Source: a virus. From it: 21,420 bases of DNA. The stretch is taken from positions 1 through 21,420 of IMG/VR virus record IMGVR_UViG_3300044701_002123; one strand, written 5' to 3'. This document shows, one piece after another, positions 6,543 through 17,688 of this stretch (position 1 is its first letter; every line of letters starts with the position of its first letter). Position numbers and translations under genes: made by a program. Under the pieces are notes generated by a model. That model did not search any database. It was not told the origin of the DNA and saw nothing but the letters and a program-made list of their open reading frames with translations.

Positions 6543-7247
6543 ATGCTATATATTTTATACACTCTAGCGGTCACACATATCACCATTATTTGTGTTACCC
6601 TTTATCTACATCGCAGTCAAGCGCACCGTGCGGTAGAATTTCATCCTGTGGTAAGTCATTTAATGCGAGCCTGGCTTTGGTTAACTACGGGTATGGTTAC
6701 ACGGCAATGGGTGGCCGTACATCGCAAGCATCACAGATTCTGCGAACAGCCCGACGATCCACACAGTCCAAGACAATACGGATTATGGCGAGTCTTATTC
6801 GGGGGAGCACTACTATACCATGCAGCAAGTAAAGATACGGAAATGGCTAATGTATATGGCGTTGGCACTCCTGATGATTGGATCGAGCGCAAGCTATACA
6901 CGCCTCACAGTAGACTTGGCATTGGCATTTGCCTTTTGTTCAACCTCGCCATCTTTGGCGGGATGGGCGCCATAATATGGTTAGTACAAATGTTATGGAT
7001 TCCATTCTGGGCCGCAGGAGTGATCAATGGAATCGGTCATTGGTGGGGTTATCGTAATGGCGAAACTCGAGATACTAGCACAAATATTTCGCCTTGGGGT
7101 ATCATAATCGGCGGCGAAGAATTGCACAACAACCACCATCTAGATCCTGCCAGTCCACGATTAAGCCGACGTTGGTTTGAGTTTGATATTGGTTGGGTGT
7201 ACATCAAACTATTACAATCATTACGTTTGGCAACTGTTAAAATTTAG
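6543..7247 (+). CDS. Membrane fatty acid (acyl-CoA/acyl-lipid) desaturase
   Basis: A 234-residue member of the COG1398-type di-iron desaturases, which insert a cis double bond into acyl chains using O2. All three histidine boxes are present: HRSQAH (23-28), HRKHH (60-64) and HNNHH (195-199). The family motif NGIGHWWGYRN (162-172) and the PWGIIIGGEELHNNHH stretch (184-199) are also intact, so the enzyme looks active. Hydrophobic segments lie near residues 3-22, 40-55, 126-148 and 150-165. It is shorter than typical bacterial versions (roughly 270-400), mainly at the ends. The sequence style is proteobacterial. It sits between adhesin and replication genes with 12-14 base gaps and no clear promoter of its own. 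It is probably an auxiliary metabolic gene that alters host membrane fluidity during infection; substrate position is not predictable. Confidence 0.9.
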   Translation: MLYILYTLAVTHITIICVTLYLHRSQAHRAVEFHPVVSHLMRAWLWLTTGMVTRQWVAVHRKHHRFCEQPDDPHSPRQYGLWRVLFGGALLYHAASKDTEMANVYGVGTPDDWIERKLYTPHSRLGIGICLLFNLAIFGGMGAIIWLVQMLWIPFWAAGVINGIGHWWGYRNGETRDTSTNISPWGIIIGGEELHNNHHLDPASPRLSRRWFEFDIGWVYIKLLQSLRLATVKI

Positions 7248-8291: not shown

Positions 8292-9737
8292 ATGACAAAA
8301 GATTATAATATAGACATTCAGAAATTGTTTTTAGAAATGATGTTGCAAGATGCAGAGACTTACGTGCGTGTGCAGAACATTTATAATTCTGAAAACTTTG
8401 ATCGAAGCCTAAGAGAAACTGCGGCTTTCATTAAGAAACACAGTGATGATTATAAAACATTGCCCACACGAGAACAGATACAAGCTGCGACCGGCGTGGT
8501 GCTTCGAGAAGTGCCCGATCTTAAAGAAGGACACTACGATTGGTTTTTACAAGAGTTTGAAGGATTTAGTAGAAAACAAGAGTTAGAAAGAGCTATTCTC
8601 CGGGCCGCTGATTTAATTGAAAAGGGTGAGTTTGATCCAGTTGAAAAATTGATCAAAGACGCGGTACAAATCAGTCTCACTAAAGACTTGGGTATGGACT
8701 TTTGGGAAGATCCCGAAGGAATGATCACCAGGTATTTTGATAGTGGTGGGCAGGTCAGTACAGGTTGGCCGCAACTAGATAAGTTGCTCTACGGTGGATT
8801 CAGTCGAGGTGAGCTAAACATTTTTGCCGGCGGATCAGGATCAGGTAAGAGTTTGGTCATGATGAATATTGCACTCAATTGGGTTCAAGCAGGACTACAC
8901 GGAGTATATGTTACTCTAGAACTCAGTCAAGAATTAACAGGTTTGCGTACCGCGGCTATGCTTACAAACATGAGTACAAAAGATATTCGTAAAGACAAAG
9001 AAACAGCAGCCCTTAAAATTAAAATGGTAAGCAAGAAGTCCGGCAGTTATCAAGTCAAAGCATTGCCGGCACAAAGTAACATTAATGACATTCGTGCATT
9101 TTTAAAAGAGTATCAAATTCAATCTGGTCGTAAAATTGATTTTATAATGATTGATTATTTAGACTTGTTGATGCCAGTAAGTGCAAAAGTTAGCCCCAAT
9201 GACTTGTTCGTTAAAGACAAATATGTTTCTGAAGAACTGCGTAATTTATCTAAAGAGTTAGGGGTATTAATGGTCACTGCCAGTCAGTTAAATCGCGGAG
9301 CAGTGGATGAAATTGAATTTGATCACAGTCATATTTCCGGCGGTATCAGTAAAATTAACACAGCAGATAATGTATTTGGTATTTTCACTTCACGTGCAAT
9401 GCGCGAGCGTGGGCGATATCAAATACAGTGTATGAAGTCACGTAGCAGTACCGGAGTAGGACAGAAAGTTGATCTGGAGTACAACATCGAAACCATGCGT
9501 ATAACCGATCCTGGGGAAGATGCTGCCGAAGCAGGAGTAATTGGATACGGACGACCTGGGGGCCCTAGCGCACCTGACAGCATAATGAGTCAAATCAAAG
9601 CCAGCAGCACTTCGTCTCCACCAATGATTGCAGCAAAGCCAAAGCCGGGATTTGATCTTGAAAAATCAGTGCAGGCAAATGTAGATAGCACAAAACTAAA
9701 GCAAATGCTCGCTAGCTTAAAAACAAAAACAGAATGA
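8292..9737 (+). CDS. 41: Replicative DNA helicase, T4 gp41/DnaB-like
   Basis: A 481-residue RecA-fold hexameric helicase that unwinds DNA ahead of the fork and recruits the primase. Start ATG 8292 follows the primase stop by one base; an in-frame upstream start lies inside the primase gene and is less likely. The Walker A motif is GGSGSGKS (180-187), the catalytic glutamate follows in YVTLELS (207-212), and Walker B is FIMIDYLDLL (284-293). A SQLNRG segment follows and the HISGG motif precedes the C-terminal part, as in DnaB-type helicases. The N-terminal 150 residues are helical, as expected for the primase-interacting domain. The C-terminal tail is rich in S, P and K. The gene ends in an ATGA overlap with the radical SAM gene. 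Confidence 0.92.
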   Translation: MTKDYNIDIQKLFLEMMLQDAETYVRVQNIYNSENFDRSLRETAAFIKKHSDDYKTLPTREQIQAATGVVLREVPDLKEGHYDWFLQEFEGFSRKQELERAILRAADLIEKGEFDPVEKLIKDAVQISLTKDLGMDFWEDPEGMITRYFDSGGQVSTGWPQLDKLLYGGFSRGELNIFAGGSGSGKSLVMMNIALNWVQAGLHGVYVTLELSQELTGLRTAAMLTNMSTKDIRKDKETAALKIKMVSKKSGSYQVKALPAQSNINDIRAFLKEYQIQSGRKIDFIMIDYLDLLMPVSAKVSPNDLFVKDKYVSEELRNLSKELGVLMVTASQLNRGAVDEIEFDHSHISGGISKINTADNVFGIFTSRAMRERGRYQIQCMKSRSSTGVGQKVDLEYNIETMRITDPGEDAAEAGVIGYGRPGGPSAPDSIMSQIKASSTSSPPMIAAKPKPGFDLEKSVQANVDSTKLKQMLASLKTKTE

Positions 9738-10735
9738 CCACCTGTTTAGATGCCTTTAAAAATATCTATATAGAGGCTCGAAATAATCATATCAATATAG
9801 CTCCTTGTTGTGTAAGCGAACCAGTACAAGTCAGTAAGATTGATTTTTATAACTTGCATTTTGAAAAAATAAGAAATCAATGGAAAAACAATCAATATCC
9901 AACAGAATGCAATTATTGTAAAATTGCCGAAGACAACAATTTAAACAGTAGACGACAGGGAAGTAACAATTGGTACGCAGATAATGACATTACCGATTCC
10001 GCTGTAGAACTTATACGGATAGATTATTGGGTGGGAGACACCTGTAATTTGGCCTGCTTGATTTGCGGCCCACAAAACAGCAGTAAATGGAAACAAGAAA
10101 AAAAGATACCTATACAACAAGCATCGGTCAATATCAACAAAAGTTGGTCCAATCTTGATTTAACAAAACTAAGATTTATACATTTCAACGGCGGCGAACC
10201 TTTGCTGAGCAAAGAGCACATAACATTTTTACAAAACATTCCTGATCCTTCTCAAGTACACTTAAATTATAATACCAACGGAACAATTTTACCGTCAGAG
10301 GAACTAATAGAGTTATGGAGTAAATTTAAATTGGTGCAATTAGACTTCAGCATTGACGATGTTGAAGAAAGATTTGAAATACAGCGTTACCCAGCTTCTT
10401 GGGATAGTGTAGTGGCCAATTTAGAATGGTACTATGATCACAGTCCGGTAAACTGTATGTTTTCTATTAATACCACTATCAGCGTATTGAATCAATCCAA
10501 TTTAGACAATATAAAACAATGGGCTCGAAATAATTTTTCTCACAACAGATTACAGGACCCTGTGGAACATAGATTTCAATTCGCTGCTGGTCAATTTGAT
10601 ATACATAACTATGACCGTAAACAAATAGTTGAATTTCTTGACAATTTAGACTCAAAAAGGTACACAAATTGGCGCCTAGTGCTACCTGATGTAGCAAAAT
10701 TGTTAAATTCTGGCAAGCACACTAATCATAATTAA
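9734..10735 (+). CDS. Radical SAM enzyme with N-terminal twitch/SPASM-like cysteine domain
   Basis: A 333-residue protein coupled to the helicase by ATGA. The radical SAM cluster motif is CNLACLIC (104-111; CX3CX2C), and the SAM-binding NGGEP motif follows at 152-156, with STIDD-like SIDD further on. Before the core lies a domain with C4, C25, C26, C59 and C62, arranged like a SPASM/twitch auxiliary-cluster domain (PCC, then CNYC) and ending in SRRQGSNN. Most SPASM proteins carry this domain after the core, so here the order is reversed. The enzyme should use a 4Fe-4S cluster to make a 5'-deoxyadenosyl radical; the substrate is unknown. Related proteins modify peptides or cofactors, so a peptide or protein target is one option. 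Placement in the replication operon implies early expression. Confidence 0.85.
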   Translation: MTTCLDAFKNIYIEARNNHINIAPCCVSEPVQVSKIDFYNLHFEKIRNQWKNNQYPTECNYCKIAEDNNLNSRRQGSNNWYADNDITDSAVELIRIDYWVGDTCNLACLICGPQNSSKWKQEKKIPIQQASVNINKSWSNLDLTKLRFIHFNGGEPLLSKEHITFLQNIPDPSQVHLNYNTNGTILPSEELIELWSKFKLVQLDFSIDDVEERFEIQRYPASWDSVVANLEWYYDHSPVNCMFSINTTISVLNQSNLDNIKQWARNNFSHNRLQDPVEHRFQFAAGQFDIHNYDRKQIVEFLDNLDSKRYTNWRLVLPDVAKLLNSGKHTNHN

Positions 10736-11014: not shown

Positions 11015-11534
11015 TGATATTATTCAAGAAGGTTTTACGTCCAGTTTTGCTAAAGCGTTGTTGCCTCAAAATTTACAATCGGTTATAAGAACTGCTAAGT
11101 CTTTTAAAGAACCAAGTGAAAAAGAATTGGCTCAAGCAGCTTACGAAAAGTTTGGAAAGTCCCCGGATTACGACGAGAAAAAAGCCCAGGAGTTGTTAGC
11201 AAGAACAACTGATCCTGCTAGAAGACAAAAAATTCAGGACTTATTAGGCAGAATGAGTTGGCTACAGGATCAACAAAAAATTAAACAAAAAGCCGAATTA
11301 AAGCAACAGCTTCGCAACAGACCACCGGCACCAGCACCAACATCCCCTTCTGTAGTAAGTCCTTTGCACCCTGATGTACAAGTAGTGAACTCGGGTGTTA
11401 ATGCAATTTTAAGGTATAGAGGTCGAGACTACGAGCGAGACGAATTCACAGGATCATGGTCTCCGGTTGGGGGAAAGAAAAGAGCTTCTCCAGGAATTAA
11501 CAGTTTTTTAAATGCCGAACTAGCAAAATTATGA
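11004..11534 (+). CDS. Unknown late protein with capsid-targeting-like N-terminus
   Basis: A 176-residue protein. The N-terminus MKINDIIQEG fits the [DE][FI]IxE pattern of the T4 capsid-targeting sequence (MKTYQEFIAE), where the prohead protease cuts after the glutamate. Residues 35-100 are charged and helical, rich in K, E and Q. A proline-rich linker follows (PPAPAPTSPSVVSP, near 107-121), then a small C-terminal domain with VNAILRYRGRDYERDEFTGS. No catalytic motif is visible. It has a good ribosome binding site (AAGGAG) eight bases before its ATG and an ATGA overlap with the nucleotidyltransferase gene. A head-internal or tail-associated role is possible, but the function is unknown. Confidence 0.75.
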   Translation: MKINDIIQEGFTSSFAKALLPQNLQSVIRTAKSFKEPSEKELAQAAYEKFGKSPDYDEKKAQELLARTTDPARRQKIQDLLGRMSWLQDQQKIKQKAELKQQLRNRPPAPAPTSPSVVSPLHPDVQVVNSGVNAILRYRGRDYERDEFTGSWSPVGGKKRASPGINSFLNAELAKL

Positions 11535-12277
11535 TAAAACTTAACGAAGGCGGTAACATTTTTAAAAATCAGGACGGAAGTTCATTGACGCAAAGAATAA
11601 ACCGTGATGATGTTCCTGCAACAGTCCAATGGATAGAATCAGTTACTGGAATTGCCTTTCCAACGGAAAATTGGTTAGGTACTACAGGTAGAAAATCCAG
11701 TTCAGGCGATCTAGATTTAGCAGTTGATGATACCAAAACAACCAAAGAGGATTTGATTAAAGTTTTGTTAGCAAAGGGTGTAGACGCAAAGGACATAAAA
11801 AAATCCGGCGATAGTGTACATGTCAAGGCTCCTATTGCAGGAGACCCCAACAACGGATTTGTACAAGCTGATCTAATGTTTGGCGATCCTGGCTGGCAAG
11901 CATTTAGTATGACCGGCGCACCTGAAACTAGCAAGTTGACCGGTATGAGTCGACATGTTATATTGGCCAGTATTGTGTCGGCATTGCATCCGGGCTTGAA
12001 ATGGAGTTACAAACACGGTTTAGTTGATCGTGTAACCAATACCACAGTGCCGGACGGCAAGACGGCCAAGAAGTTGAGCGACCTTACTGGAATACCCGTG
12101 GCAAAATTAAACACAGCCGACGACATTTTAGATGCTGTAAGTAAACGCCCAAACTACGATCAGCTAGTAGCAGCAGCTAGAGAAACACTGGCCAAGAGCG
12201 ATATTCAGTTACCCGAAGCAGCGCCTATGCCAGGTACAGCAGCTTGGTTTAGAGAAACAGCTAACAAGATCGTATAA
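11531..12277 (+). CDS. Nucleotidyltransferase of the DNA polymerase beta superfamily
   Basis: A 248-residue protein. The segment LGTTGRKSSSGDLDLAVD (49-66) fits the superfamily signature, hG[ST] followed by DxD, with metal ligands D60 and D62. A third carboxylate sits on a later strand, VQADLMF (D114). These enzymes transfer a nucleotide to a nucleic acid end, protein or small molecule. The C-terminal half (145-220) is helical and may select the substrate; I cannot name it. The N-terminus MIKLNEGG also contains an LxE|G site like that of the prohead protease. It is coupled to both neighbours (ATGA before, TAATG after), so it is co-produced with the ligase-like protein; the pair suggests end-joining or end-modification of nucleic acids. 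It belongs to a late operon, unlike the replication genes. Confidence 0.7.
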   Translation: MIKLNEGGNIFKNQDGSSLTQRINRDDVPATVQWIESVTGIAFPTENWLGTTGRKSSSGDLDLAVDDTKTTKEDLIKVLLAKGVDAKDIKKSGDSVHVKAPIAGDPNNGFVQADLMFGDPGWQAFSMTGAPETSKLTGMSRHVILASIVSALHPGLKWSYKHGLVDRVTNTTVPDGKTAKKLSDLTGIPVAKLNTADDILDAVSKRPNYDQLVAAARETLAKSDIQLPEAAPMPGTAAWFRETANKIV

Positions 12278-13371
12278 TGCTATTAGAATTCATAACCACA
12301 CTTACTGAAAGTATACGTACACCACATCCAGAAGATTTTATTCTCAATGGTAGTCAAGCAGCCGCAGACGCTATAACTGGTATGTTGGCCGCAGTGTCTA
12401 ATCCCAATATAGTAAGTATCAAATGGGACGGAAGTCCGGCTATCATATTTGGTCGTAGGTCGGCTGATGGACAATTTACCATGAATTACAAAGAATACAT
12501 TGGTATGCCCGGAGGCCAAGTAACATCTGCACAAGATCTATTAAATTTCTTTGCACAAAATGCAAAGAATATGGATGTAGGGCAAAAATTAGCCAATATG
12601 TTCGATGCAGTGTCAAGCATAGTTCCTACGAATTTCTCTGGATTTGTGCAAGGTGATGTCATGTGGACAGAACCAGTGACCGAGGATAAAGGTTATTATA
12701 TTTTTCAAGCCAATCCTTATGGAGTACAATACAAAGTTCGATCTAATAGTCCTGTTGGTAAAGAAATACAAGGCAGACCTTTTGGCCTGGCAGTACACAC
12801 TGTTGGTACCGATGTAGAAAAAACTAGCAAAGGTACAGAGTTAATTGGTAAAACATCTATGCAAGGATTGGGCGGACTTTCTGGTACAAATCAATATATA
12901 ACTGTATTAACTGGCACAATGGGGAACAGGTTTAAATTGAGAGAACCTGTGCAGCAAGTAAAAACAGCGCAAATGGCAGTTAAAAAGTTTGCCGAGCTAA
13001 ACGGCGATAATTTTCTAGGCAGTTTAACTCAAACCACAATATCCAAATTACAAACTTATTATAATCGAAAATATACCGGGCAAGCAGTAGACGCAAATTG
13101 GCTGGCAAATAATATCACAAAACCACAATTCGCCATTGTTGCAGCTGAAGAAAATCGTGCTATCATGGAAGTAATGGATGCAGCTTACGTGGCAATTTAT
13201 GCATTGAAATTGGCAATTTTGGAGCAATTAGAACCTCAGGTGCAAGGTGTTGAACAGTATGTTAACGGAATTCCAAAAGGCGAAGGATTCGTAATTAACA
13301 CACCGAGTGGATTCATTAAACTGGTAAATCGCGGAGTATTTTCCACTGCAAATGTACAAGGAAGATTATAA
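12277..13371 (+). CDS. Ligase-like covalent nucleotidyltransferase fold protein
   Basis: A 364-residue protein with signatures of DNA/RNA ligases and capping enzymes. VSIKWDGSPAIIFGR (46-60) matches motif I, KxDGxP, where K49 would carry the AMP. GFVQGDVMW (122-130) occupies the place of motif III (FxxDGE, here with G126-D127). Near the C-terminus EGFVI (336-340) matches motif IV (EGxV) and FIKLV (346-350) motif V (KxK/KL). The distance from motif III to IV is unusually long, about 200 residues, so a domain is inserted. Motif III is imperfect, so activity is uncertain. The N-terminus MLLEFITTLTES contains an LTE|S site similar to prohead-protease sites. It forms a TAATG-coupled pair with the nucleotidyltransferase. 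Possible roles are nick sealing, RNA repair or a structural derivative of the fold. Confidence 0.6.
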   Translation: MLLEFITTLTESIRTPHPEDFILNGSQAAADAITGMLAAVSNPNIVSIKWDGSPAIIFGRRSADGQFTMNYKEYIGMPGGQVTSAQDLLNFFAQNAKNMDVGQKLANMFDAVSSIVPTNFSGFVQGDVMWTEPVTEDKGYYIFQANPYGVQYKVRSNSPVGKEIQGRPFGLAVHTVGTDVEKTSKGTELIGKTSMQGLGGLSGTNQYITVLTGTMGNRFKLREPVQQVKTAQMAVKKFAELNGDNFLGSLTQTTISKLQTYYNRKYTGQAVDANWLANNITKPQFAIVAAEENRAIMEVMDAAYVAIYALKLAILEQLEPQVQGVEQYVNGIPKGEGFVINTPSGFIKLVNRGVFSTANVQGRL

Positions 13372-13386: not shown

Positions 13387-13394
13387 TATAAATA
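13387..13394 (+). promoter_or_regulatory. T4-type late promoter TATAAATA
   Basis: A perfect TATAAATA followed by TCTATA. Predicted start is near 13400, giving a leader of about 32 bases with the strong ribosome binding site AGGAG at 13421-13425 before ATG 13432. It drives the first of two monocistronic paralogous genes. Confidence 0.8.
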
Positions 13395-14370: not shown

Positions 14371-14378
14371 TATAAATA
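14371..14378 (+). promoter_or_regulatory. T4-type late promoter TATAAATA, predicted leaderless
   Basis: A perfect element only five bases from the ATG at 14384. With T4 geometry (element at -13 to -6) the first transcribed base is the A of that ATG. No ribosome binding site can fit in between. Confidence 0.75.
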
Positions 14379-15375: not shown

Positions 15376-15859
15376 CTTCAACAATGTACAGGAAATTTTT
15401 GTAGATTTTGGAACAAAATATTTAAAAAATTGGACACAGCAAAACCTTAAAAAATACAGAGATCAACCCGTAGTTATACCAATTGGCGACTACGGGTTTT
15501 TTATTGGTCCTTACAAAATATCAGGAAAATCAAAAAATTGCTGGACTCTGGAACTAATAGACGGGCAGCACATACATGATTTTGTATCAAAATCCCACGC
15601 TATTCTTTATTGCCTAAACGAAATAAAAAACAGACCCAATGCCGTTGAAATACTAGAATTAGATAGACAGCTTGGAAAATTAGACAATGATATCCAATTT
15701 TACAAACACACTCTAGAAACAACTAAAAATAAGTTTAAAAACACAGTTATATTAAATAGATATATAGATGCTAAATTACAGCGCCGTTATGTTTTGAATA
15801 TTTTGAAAAAAACTTTAATTTCGGCTAAATACTTAAAATTTGGGAACACACCACTATGA
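15344..15859 (+). CDS. Conserved-looking phage protein of unknown function
   Basis: A 171-residue protein if it starts at ATG 15344; another in-frame ATG at 15320 would add eight residues, and neither has a clear ribosome binding site. A central beta-rich segment (VVIPIGDYGFFIGPYKISGK) is followed by SHAILYCLNEI and a long charged helix beginning EILELDRQLGKLDNDIQFY, probably a coiled coil, then a basic end. It is lysine and asparagine rich and more AT-rich than its neighbours. It overlaps the upstream gene by 32 bases and the downstream gene by ATGA. A role in virion assembly is inferred only from its setting. Confidence 0.7.
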   Translation: MEKSITEKKSNFNNVQEIFVDFGTKYLKNWTQQNLKKYRDQPVVIPIGDYGFFIGPYKISGKSKNCWTLELIDGQHIHDFVSKSHAILYCLNEIKNRPNAVEILELDRQLGKLDNDIQFYKHTLETTKNKFKNTVILNRYIDAKLQRRYVLNILKKTLISAKYLKFGNTPL

Positions 15860-16539
15860 GATTAACAGAAATGGGCGTCAAGCCTTCCGCTAAAAAAATC
15901 AACAAAGTTATGGAAAGCCGCTTTGGCGTCAAGATCGATTATGACAATTTGAACTTTCCTAAAGCTTATGTACTGGCTCAAGGACTAACAGAAAATCTTG
16001 AAAAAATCAAGCACAGTCACGGCGTACACGTTGCCGAAAAGAATCCAAAATATATGGAATTGTTAATGGTACGTGAAGGACTACATCGTTGGATGGTAGA
16101 AAACAAGCATCAGCTTGTTATGGAAAGCGAAATGGGCAAAAGCCAAGCTATCTTAGCTGCCAAAGACATGGTTGATAGTATTCAAGATATGCTAGAAGAA
16201 GTAAGCAAAATGCAAAACGAGCAGATGCCTGCATTACTAGATACTATCCGCGACCAAATTGGTATGGAACAGGCCGATCAATTCAAAGCCAGCGTTGGTG
16301 CATTACTAGCAAACATGGTAACAGATTTGAGCACTGCGAGAGAAACAGCTGATCAAGCTGCCAGGGCACTTGCCGGTGAACAAGTGGCTGCACCAATGGG
16401 AATGGATCCAATGGCTGCACCTGGGGCAGCCCCAGGCATGCCAGGTCCAGTTGGTCCGGCACCTGGTATGGAAACTGATAGTTTTGCTGCCACTGATGCT
16501 GCTGCTGGTCCCAACGACGTTGGTAGAGAGAAACGCTAA
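15856..16539 (+). CDS. Possible head-core/scaffold-like protein
   Basis: A 227-residue protein. Residues 1-60 (MRLTEMGVKPSAKKINKVME) form a small basic domain. Residues 60-170 are strongly helical, methionine, glutamine and glutamate rich, with no catalytic motif. The end is a low-complexity tail of A, P, G and M (MGMDPMAAPGAAPGMPGPVG). A long helical body with flexible tail and N-terminal LTE site recalls prohead core proteins, but I cannot match it to T4 gp22, gp67 or gp68. Coupled by ATGA upstream and TAATG downstream. Confidence 0.65.
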   Translation: MRLTEMGVKPSAKKINKVMESRFGVKIDYDNLNFPKAYVLAQGLTENLEKIKHSHGVHVAEKNPKYMELLMVREGLHRWMVENKHQLVMESEMGKSQAILAAKDMVDSIQDMLEEVSKMQNEQMPALLDTIRDQIGMEQADQFKASVGALLANMVTDLSTARETADQAARALAGEQVAAPMGMDPMAAPGAAPGMPGPVGPAPGMETDSFAATDAAAGPNDVGREKR

Positions 16540-16961
16540 TGCGTATTCGTGAAATTATTGTAGAGAACTTGGACGAATATTTAGACGAAGTTCTCGAAGA
16601 TGAAGCCGACGGTCGCGGAGATGCCAATTTAATTACTGTATTGGAATTTCTCCGCAACCGAGCGCACGACACTCATATTCAACCTAGAATCAGGGTCGAC
16701 AGTTTAATCAACTTGATTCAAGGTTCAGGAGAACAGCAATTTACTTTAGAAAACTTGTTAGCAGCATATAAAGACAACTCTGTTATAAAAAGTTTAATTA
16801 AAGATATAAAAGATGATTCAACTGGAGTCAAGTATGTTTACCTTGTTCCTTTTGCCGATGACCAGGAGTTGGGCGCAATAGGCGATGTGAACACACCAAA
16901 AACTGCTCCAGAGCAAACAGTAGATTCAATGGCTAAATCTGCTCTTGCTAAAAGATCCTAA
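16539..16961 (+). CDS. Unknown late protein with capsid-targeting-like N-terminus
   Basis: A 140-residue acidic protein. MRIREIIVEN at the start fits [DE][FI]IxE, the core of the T4 capsid-targeting sequence, with a predicted cut after E9. Then comes an acidic helix (LDEYLDEVLEDEADGRGD), a helical body with FTLENLLAAYKDNSVIKSLI, and a flexible C-terminus. Similar proteins occur in T4-like marine phages, function unknown. It is the last gene of the small-gene cluster and is separated from iscU by 30 bases that contain only the iscU ribosome binding site. Confidence 0.7.
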   Translation: MRIREIIVENLDEYLDEVLEDEADGRGDANLITVLEFLRNRAHDTHIQPRIRVDSLINLIQGSGEQQFTLENLLAAYKDNSVIKSLIKDIKDDSTGVKYVYLVPFADDQELGAIGDVNTPKTAPEQTVDSMAKSALAKRS

Positions 16962-16991: not shown

Positions 16992-17378
16992 ATGGCTTAC
17001 TCAGGTCAAGTCTTGGATCATTATGAAAATCCAAGAAACGTAGGTAAATTAGATAAAAATGATCCCGCAGTGGGAACAGGCCTAGTTGGTGCTCCTGCTT
17101 GCGGTGACGTACTACAACTGCAAATAAAAGTCGAAGACAACATCATTACCGATGCAAAATTTAAGACATACGGTTGCGGATCAGCGATTGCAAGTTCGTC
17201 GCTGGTTACGACGTGGCTTATGGGAAAGAGTCTTGACGAAGCAGCATCAATTCAGAATACTCACATCGCCGAAGAACTCGCGTTACCTCCTGTTAAAATA
17301 CACTGTAGCATATTGGCAGAAGATGCAATTAAAGCAGCATTAGCAGATTACAAGGCAAAACATGATACAGTTAACTGA
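16992..17378 (+). CDS. iscU: Iron-sulphur cluster assembly scaffold IscU
   Basis: A 128-residue IscU/NifU-N type scaffold on which 2Fe-2S and 4Fe-4S clusters are built from IscS sulphur. Ligands are intact: C37 and D39 in APACGD, C62 in YGCGSAIASSS, and H104/C105 in KIHCSILAEDAIKAA. LPPVK (98-102), the recognition site of the HscA chaperone, is retained, so it should work with host HscA/HscB and IscS, none of which is encoded here. Length matches bacterial IscU. The gene has a strong ribosome binding site (AGGAG, 16981-16985). It overlaps iscA by 17 bases. The pair is an auxiliary metabolic module that could keep cluster supply going during infection. Confidence 0.95.
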   Translation: MAYSGQVLDHYENPRNVGKLDKNDPAVGTGLVGAPACGDVLQLQIKVEDNIITDAKFKTYGCGSAIASSSLVTTWLMGKSLDEAASIQNTHIAEELALPPVKIHCSILAEDAIKAALADYKAKHDTVN

Positions 17379-17688
17379 TATTGCAGCCAGAAAAGTCAAG
17401 CAACAATTAGACAAGCGTGGTAAAGGACACGGCATCATGATTGGAGTTAGAACAACCGGTTGTTCCGGCTTGGCTTATAAACTAGAGTATGTTGATGTGC
17501 CGCCTGTGACTAGAGACTGGATGAAATACGACAGCAATGGCGTCACTGTATGGGTAAACGGAAAAGACCATCCGTATGTGAACGGTCTTACAATGGACTA
17601 CAAACGTCAAGGGCTTAATGAAGGTTTTGAGTTTATAAATCCCAATGAACGCGATCGCTGCGGCTGTGGAGAAAGTTTTCGAATTTGA
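17362..17688 (+). CDS. iscA: A-type iron-sulphur carrier IscA/HesB
   Basis: A 108-residue A-type carrier that passes iron or clusters to target proteins. The three conserved cysteines are present: C34 in RTTGCSGLAY, and C100 and C102 in DRCGCGESF. Length matches bacterial IscA (about 107). One difference is the central loop, VPPVTRDWMKYDSNGVTVWV, which is slightly altered from the usual D-hxxxxG-hxhhhD region. It overlaps iscU by 17 bases, so translation is coupled, and its stop overlaps the TTG start of the next gene. The presence of both scaffold and carrier suggests a functional delivery route, possibly to the phage radical SAM enzyme or a host target. Confidence 0.95.
   Translation: MIQLTDIAARKVKQQLDKRGKGHGIMIGVRTTGCSGLAYKLEYVDVPPVTRDWMKYDSNGVTVWVNGKDHPYVNGLTMDYKRQGLNEGFEFINPNERDRCGCGESFRI

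Follow-up and report, generated by a model that had tools for sequence, protein, structure and literature searches.

The internal proteins of bacteriophage T4 are packaged and injected into the host together with the genome, and one of them, IPI, is an inhibitor of a restriction system of the host (PMC9391042). For IPIII to be packaged, its first 10 residues are enough, and the T4 protease gp21 cleaves after the motif L/I-X-E (PMC9026906). For jumbo phages, pol-beta nucleotidyltransferases paired with RNA ligases have been proposed as a theme of transfer RNA (tRNA) repair that acts against tRNA-cutting defences, and the nucleotidyltransferase has been proposed to restore lost nucleotides ahead of ligation (PMC7824862). 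Here, we analyze a single virus record of 21,420 bases, a genome fragment of an uncultured T4-like phage (IMG/VR record IMGVR_UViG_3300044701_002123) that we refer to in its full length as the window, and focus on two coupled genes whose products we term P1 and P2. On balance, we slightly favour the view that both proteins are virion cargo, i.e., a capsid-targeted heal-and-seal kit that would be co-injected with the genome and whose likeliest substrate would be tRNA.

The P1–P2 gene pair and its predicted folds

Both open reading frames (ORFs) were found exactly where an original prediction made from this DNA had placed a coupled pol-beta nucleotidyltransferase and ligase-like protein (Table 1). 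The reading frames of P1 (248 residues) and P2 (364 residues) overlap as TAATG at positions 12275–12279, and the predicted motifs are present at the expected residues, namely G50-T-T-G53, S57-S-G-D60-L-D62, and Q112-A-D114 in P1 and K49-W-D-G-S-P, E336-G-F-V-I, and I347-K348-L-V350 in P2. The start of P1 is in turn overlapped by a preceding ORF, the first approximately 30–55 residues of which are kept among relatives and the remainder of which is strongly variable. Relatives of each protein were collected on more than 580 viral-contig stretches, among the matches listed, and the resulting alignments A3 (P1) and A4 (P2) extend to 26% and 20% identity, respectively. G50, G59, D60, D62, Q112, and D114 are invariant in 108 of 108 distinct single-domain homologues of P1, and the same is true for K49, D51, G52, D127, E336, G337, K348, V350, and R352 in 114 of 114 homologues of P2. 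The predicted active sites of both proteins are therefore under strong constraint, and the conservation that had been anticipated for K49, D60, and D62 is borne out.

Single-sequence and profile searches against the sequences of solved structures returned nothing meaningful for P1 or P2, and the folds of both proteins thus rest on predicted models. These were calculated with AlphaFold2 on window-led alignments, reached predicted local distance difference test (pLDDT) scores of 91.9 for P1 and 92.4 for P2, and both show cores of the nucleotidyltransferase type, in line with the original prediction. The best Foldseek match for P1 is Pol lambda (E = 3.6e-4), and upon structural realignment all 50 rows among the matches listed are Pol mu, lambda, or beta (Z 9.7–10.1). 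The aligned span of approximately 164–184 residues at 3.5–3.9 Å comprises mainly palm and thumb (residues 139–335 of Pol beta), and the fingers and 8-kDa domains of family X polymerases are missing from P1. The G[ST] and DxD motifs and the third aspartate of the pol-beta superfamily are all present on a pol-beta palm. In scans of the window proteins, P1 had neither a Pfam match over the cut-off nor a PHROG match. Assignment of P1 to RlaP (PF10127) was rejected, as 59 P1 members gave no profile match at E ≤ 1, and assignment as a true family X DNA polymerase was rejected because of the missing 8-kDa and fingers domains and the lack of a Pol X match in Pfam. Weak matches to AbiEii toxin nucleotidyltransferases were obtained for four P1 members. 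A survey of about 85,000 prokaryote genomes yielded just two remote matches to P1 and no host origin.

P2 belongs to Pfam family DUF6267 (PF19782; 102 bits versus a cut-off of 27, E = 4.8e-29), the profile of which matches 58 of 58 members of alignment A4 and which is mentioned nowhere in the literature searched. Motifs KxDG (motif I) and EGx (motif IV) of the covalent nucleotidyltransferase superfamily are present in all 114 homologues. Upon structural realignment, rows 1–43 are all RNA or DNA ligases with Z scores of 5.2–7.7, the first unrelated row appearing at 4.9; the nearest folds are those of the Naegleria RNA ligase (7.7) and T4 Rnl1 (7.1), and further matches include RNA editing ligase 1 (6.6), Trl1 (6.5), T4 Rnl2 (6.4), and ligases I/IV (about 6). 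As these scores stay below 8 and the Foldseek result is non-significant, support for the ligase fold is moderate. Significant matches in a viral structure library were confined to relatives bearing no name, one of them from Atu_ph07. Taking motifs, profiles, and models together, we assign P1 to the pol-beta-type and P2 to the ATP-dependent ligase-type enzyme superfamilies with high confidence.

N-terminal tags, virion genes and possible late expression

Both proteins start with a short stretch that resembles a capsid-targeting propeptide. In 109 of 115 distinct P1 homologues, [LIV]xE stands directly before GGN, with a highly variable middle residue (MIKLNE/GGN, MQHKLFE/GGN, MILLE/GGN, MKINE/GGN; here and below, slashes mark predicted cuts). 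Homologues of P2 start with MLLEFITTLTE/, MKLFEFVQFLTE/, or MRAFEFLTE/, residue 11 being glutamate in 106 and residue 9 leucine, isoleucine, or valine in 112 of the 114 sequences. The pLDDT drops below 50 at residues 1–6 of P1 and 1–12 of P2 and nowhere else for at least three residues, such that the disorder ends almost exactly at the tag glutamate in both models. Like T4-type propeptides, both tags comprise at most 19 residues and end with L/I-x-E. When P1 and P2 are fused in one ORF (12 cases), [LIV]xE is kept before the P2 domain in 11 of the 11 junctions read (e.g., KTLTE/DVKGRTPHPED, VITE/AARIEHPED, and LIIE/SARIAHPED). Furthermore, tags occur on unrelated genes of the same cassette, such as those for a second pol-beta-like family (MRAREFVIE/GGWD), a GNAT protein (MKIAEILIE/S), and a CCA-adding enzyme (MRAFEFLIE/D). 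A strict tag pattern was found in 26 of 278 families as opposed to 1.8 expected; since this pattern was tuned on these data, a fairer comparison uses the plain motif [LI]xE from the literature, which occurs close to the start in 63 of the 278 families, with 20.7 expected on the basis of internal methionines in these proteins.

The genomic context points in the same direction as the tags. Peptidase_S77, the gp21-type protease, is encoded in six of 14 related records including all four complete genomes; the carriers are S-RIM2, Phosso, Atu_ph07, PA5oct, and two metagenomic relatives. One protease-bearing metagenomic contig (L041/L185) encodes a P1 that is 77% identical to that of the window. In PA5oct, the P1 homologue is gp253, which bears the annotation of a structural protein on the basis of electrospray ionization tandem mass spectrometry (ESI-MS/MS) and stands in a run of such entries, two of which, gp247 and gp246 (both ESI-MS/MS), resemble, as judged by eye, the products of window genes 15856–16539 and 16539–16961, respectively. 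In S-RIM2, the DUF6267 gene is followed by a gene for a tagged cytidylyltransferase (MKKFSAFLTE/), and a putative cytidylyltransferase was detected in virions of cyanophage S-SM1 (PMC3037559). The two cytidylyltransferases are presumably orthologues.

The pair is located downstream of primase and DnaB-helicase genes, among virion-type genes. A T4-late-type promoter box, TATAAATA, occurs at a conserved place, at most 90 nucleotides after P2, in 66 of 186 loci versus 1.1% expected by density; within the window, no such box was found in front of the P1–P2 pair itself. The proposal that the pair is made late, rather than with the replication genes, thus stands in part. Boxes after the pair and before the next genes render a late stage plausible, none was found ahead of the pair, and the original timing argument has to be recast, in view of the putative propeptides and the block of virion genes, as packaging into the head. 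On these grounds, the best reading is that P1 and P2 are head-packaged and reach the next host cell as infection begins, which would account for the late production of a repair pair, and packaging itself we regard as very probable. By the same token, it is highly improbable that the proteins are an ordinary RlaP-like nucleotidyltransferase and RNA ligase that work intracellularly, [LIV]xE being coincidental or a feature of translation coupling, even though RlaP and RNA ligase pairs are common as intracellular phage repair sets (PMC7824862) and no protease was found in the window fragment: none of 59 scanned P1 homologues matches RlaP, the tag is met again at fusion junctions and on numerous unrelated genes of the cassette, and one P1 homologue has been annotated as belonging to the virion. 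In addition, other parts of the Atu_ph07 genome encode a canonical RlaP, the sole RlaP match in ten records, and RNA ligases, so its cassette pair is a separate set.

Several observations concern tagged proteins beyond P1 and P2. In the second pol-beta-like nucleotidyltransferase family (GRPTGSS..YGDIDLQ..VQIDFM), various [LIV]xE tags precede GGW. This family has no match to a Pfam nucleotidyltransferase family where this was tested, and its members include fusions with GNAT in locus L158 (junction PIQE/GGWD) and with a GH19 chitinase-like domain in L136. In Atu_ph07, seven tandem ORFs starting like MKWxQLTE (L084, 8588–14296) may represent an expanded family of proteins delivered from the head. 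In L102 (6717–8653), L103 (4325–7425), and L104 (7666–10595), where P2 is missing, P1 is followed by arrays of genes with MRAxEFIxE-like starts that are mostly unrelated to one another and are likely a cargo hotspot. Two DUF6267 proteins (L119, 2922–4169; L110, 2306–3550) contain a KWS.KYKRSINCSNPKGFSQ(K/R)AHCxGRKK insert between tag and ligase core.

Linkage, possible substrate and competing explanations

Linkage was assessed in 144 distinct untruncated loci. As these loci are the nearest to the window, the counts hold for this clade rather than for the family at large. P1 and P2 are linked in 125 of them, i.e., they are adjacent in 93, separated by at least one gene or a longer gap in 20, and fused in 12. 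The conserved adjacency that had been suggested as a check is therefore evident. In one fusion of 815 residues (L109), a nucleotidylyltransferase-like domain (FPGRFQPF..H) is placed ahead of P1 and P2. In Phosso, Atu_ph07, and PA5oct, the P1 homologue is a remote one and a different KxDG protein is encoded upstream of it. Two of these KxDG proteins have weak RNA_ligase matches, and profile comparison with DUF6267 matched motifs IV–V alone (probability 41%, E = 2.7e-4). Their membership in DUF6267 is unproven, and we take them as ligase-like partners. Genes with possible PD-(D/E)xK-like motifs (L086, 6708–7856, GDIFIKY..SLKAG; L085, 4644–5663, TDVVLN..SMKG) adjoin the DUF6267/KxDG genes in a cyanophage and PA5oct and could encode a nuclease partner.

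With two coupled nucleotidyltransferase-type enzymes as conserved neighbours, the role in end modification or repair put forward originally is plausible, and cooperation of P1 and P2 in end repair is in our view probable; the pairing, though common, is not obligate. The counter-defence role raised in the original prediction stays conjectural. Packaged but independent effectors, with P1 nucleotidylating host RNA or protein to aid takeover and P2 adenylylating something else, would fit the diverse cargo of the cassette (GNAT, GH19 chitinase-like, DUF6321), the occurrence of each protein without its partner, and the weak AbiEii resemblance mentioned above, but we consider such a scenario quite unlikely given the strong linkage including the 12 fusions and given that Phosso, Atu_ph07, and PA5oct have divergent, ligase-like KxDG genes ahead of P1.

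As to the substrate, we lean modestly towards RNA rather than DNA because a tagged CCA-adding enzyme is part of the cassette, the core of P2 is RNA ligase-like, and a nucleotidyltransferase/RNA-ligase theme has been proposed. The CCA-adding enzyme (PolyA_pol, 2e-36; tag MRAFEFLIE) is encoded between P1 and P2 in locus L146 (6917–8056), and L149 and L150 have the same gap between P1 and P2. Repair sets consisting of a polymerase X and a ligase exist in some large eukaryotic DNA viruses. By analogy, the packaged pair could act on DNA, with P1 filling gaps or adding nucleotides and P2 sealing nicks, gaps, and breaks of the incoming genome. The structural matches of P1, Pol mu, lambda, and beta, are gap-filling and end-joining polymerases, DNA ligases I/IV follow closely behind the RNA ligases in the ranking for P2, the difference being within about 1.5 Z units, and the pair follows primase and DnaB helicase genes. 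Nevertheless, P1 has neither fingers nor 8-kDa domain, P2 is most similar in fold to RNA ligases, and the tagged CCA-adding enzyme in the cassette of some relatives speaks against DNA, such that we judge action on DNA to be the less likely case, albeit the most serious competitor.

According to the preferred heal-and-seal reading, P1 and P2 would be synthesized late with N-terminal capsid-targeting propeptides, enter the prohead, and be trimmed after [L/I/V]-x-E by a T4-type prohead protease. The trimmed proteins would then be ejected into the host together with the genome. There, P1 may restore lost nucleotides at the 3′ end before sealing, and P2 is predicted to form lysyl-AMP at K49, activate the 5′-phosphate end, and seal. 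The likeliest substrate would be host or phage tRNA cut by first-line defence nucleases. More tentatively, and with somewhat less than even confidence, a repair kit inside the capsid can be envisaged for a large clade of T4-related phages, in which a pol-beta nucleotidyltransferase and a DUF6267 ligase are sometimes joined by a CCA-adding enzyme and which is organized as a swappable cassette, sometimes as a protease-cut polyprotein.

A number of findings weigh against this picture. For P2, Foldseek alone gave no significant match, and the canonical KxK of motif V is absent: the invariant sequence is K348-x-V350, with valine in place of the second lysine, which is why we call P2 a divergent ligase-type protein and do not file it as a canonical ligase. 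One gene occurs alone in 19 of the 144 loci (P1 only in nine, P2 only in ten), and the partnership, measured against the 125 linked loci, is thus strong but not obligate. A prohead protease was not found in the 21-kb window, presumably because the record is a fragment. The P1 proteins of Phosso, Atu_ph07, and PA5oct start at the mature GG/SG end and have no propeptide, so for the untagged PA5oct gp253 there must be either a different route into the virion or an error in the annotated start, and the KxDG partner in PA5oct, gp256, is not marked as virion-detected. Finally, the best structural matches of P1 are DNA polymerases, and in this respect DNA is favoured as much as RNA.

Further genes surround the pair in the window (Table 1). 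Between the DnaB helicase gene and the cargo cassette, a radical SAM protein is encoded (9734–10735). A fatty acid desaturase gene (6543–7247; PF00487, 8e-16) is located further upstream, and 19 distinct sequences of this enzyme were present among the fetched loci. Positions 16992–17688 encode an iron–sulphur assembly pair of IscU type (NifU_N, 2e-50) and IscA type (Fe-S_biosyn, 2e-17).

Table 1. Coordinates of features in the window and, in the last row, of a second family in other loci
Feature	Position	Strand	Remarks
Upstream variable ORF, 176 residues	11004–11534	+	N-terminus MKINDIIQE/GF, capsid-targeting-like
P1, pol-beta-superfamily nucleotidyltransferase, Pol X-like palm and thumb	11531–12277	+	Model, motifs, homologues
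P1 putative propeptide MIKLNE/	11531–11548	+	Predicted cut after E6, before GGN
P1 metal-binding D60-x-D62	11708–11716	+	Third Asp D114 at 11870–11872; invariant 108/108
P2, DUF6267 protein, ATP-dependent ligase-type nucleotidyltransferase core	12277–13371	+	Profile, model, motifs
P2 putative propeptide MLLEFITTLTE/	12277–12309	+	Predicted cut after E11
P2 motif I K49-W-D-G, predicted adenylated Lys	12421–12432	+	Invariant
P2 motif IV (E336-G-F) and motif V (K348-x-V350-N-R352)	13282–13332	+	Invariant
T4-late-type promoter box TATAAATA	13387–13394	+	Ahead of next gene; second copy 14371–14378
Virion/head-type protein MRLTE/MG...	15856–16539	+	phrog_14154, head and packaging, 1e-9
Protein with capsid-targeting-like N-terminus MRIREIIVE/N	16539–16961	+	39/43 family members fit tag pattern
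Second pol-beta-like family	L158 1465–2853, L166 2195–3214, L171 4991–5998, L174 2941–3966, L131 6765–7778, L136 7005–8705		

Relation to known systems

Capsid-targeted cargo on the one hand and repair by a pol-beta nucleotidyltransferase and a ligase on the other are known as separate kinds of system. The literature searched contained neither their combination nor a proposed function of DUF6267 nor such cleavable fusions. Pfam assigns no function to DUF6267, for which we propose a ligase core, catalytic residues, and a propeptide. Protein gp183 of cyanophage Syn9 and the cyanophage DUF6267 protein are homologous, and P2 is a clear member of this family, which is present in hundreds of genome records of cyanophages and other phages and now gains a testable function.

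P1 shares palm and thumb, the G[ST]..GDxD signature, and the third aspartate with Pol beta, mu, and lambda but differs from them by the lack of the fingers/8-kDa domain and of a Pfam Pol X match. Like the Pnkp/Rnl1 system for tRNA repair in T4, the pair would combine end healing with sealing, and Rnl1 ranks high among the folds that resemble P2 (Z 7.1); the healing enzyme, however, stems from a different family, and T4 Pnkp and Rnl1 are made inside the cell and are not known to be head cargo. The linkage of a pol-beta nucleotidyltransferase to an ATP-dependent ligase is reminiscent of the jumbo-phage theme (PMC7824862), from which the pair is set apart by the missing RlaP match in 59 P1 members and by its putative capsid-targeting propeptides. 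If our reading is correct, repair would begin on arrival, ahead of any phage gene expression, suggesting that T4-like phages inject repair enzymes and not inhibitors alone at the time when first-response defences act. A variable [L/I/V]-x-E tag before a conserved mature start may moreover serve as a search rule for head-delivered cargo in uncultured phages. The closest parallel is provided by the internal proteins and Alt of T4, with which the system shares short N-terminal L/I-x-E propeptides, diverse unrelated cargo, and, in relatives, Peptidase_S77. Unlike in T4, the cargo consists of a nucleotidyltransferase and a ligase that are sometimes fused with a protease-like site between the two enzymes, at which cleavage is predicted, an unusual arrangement.

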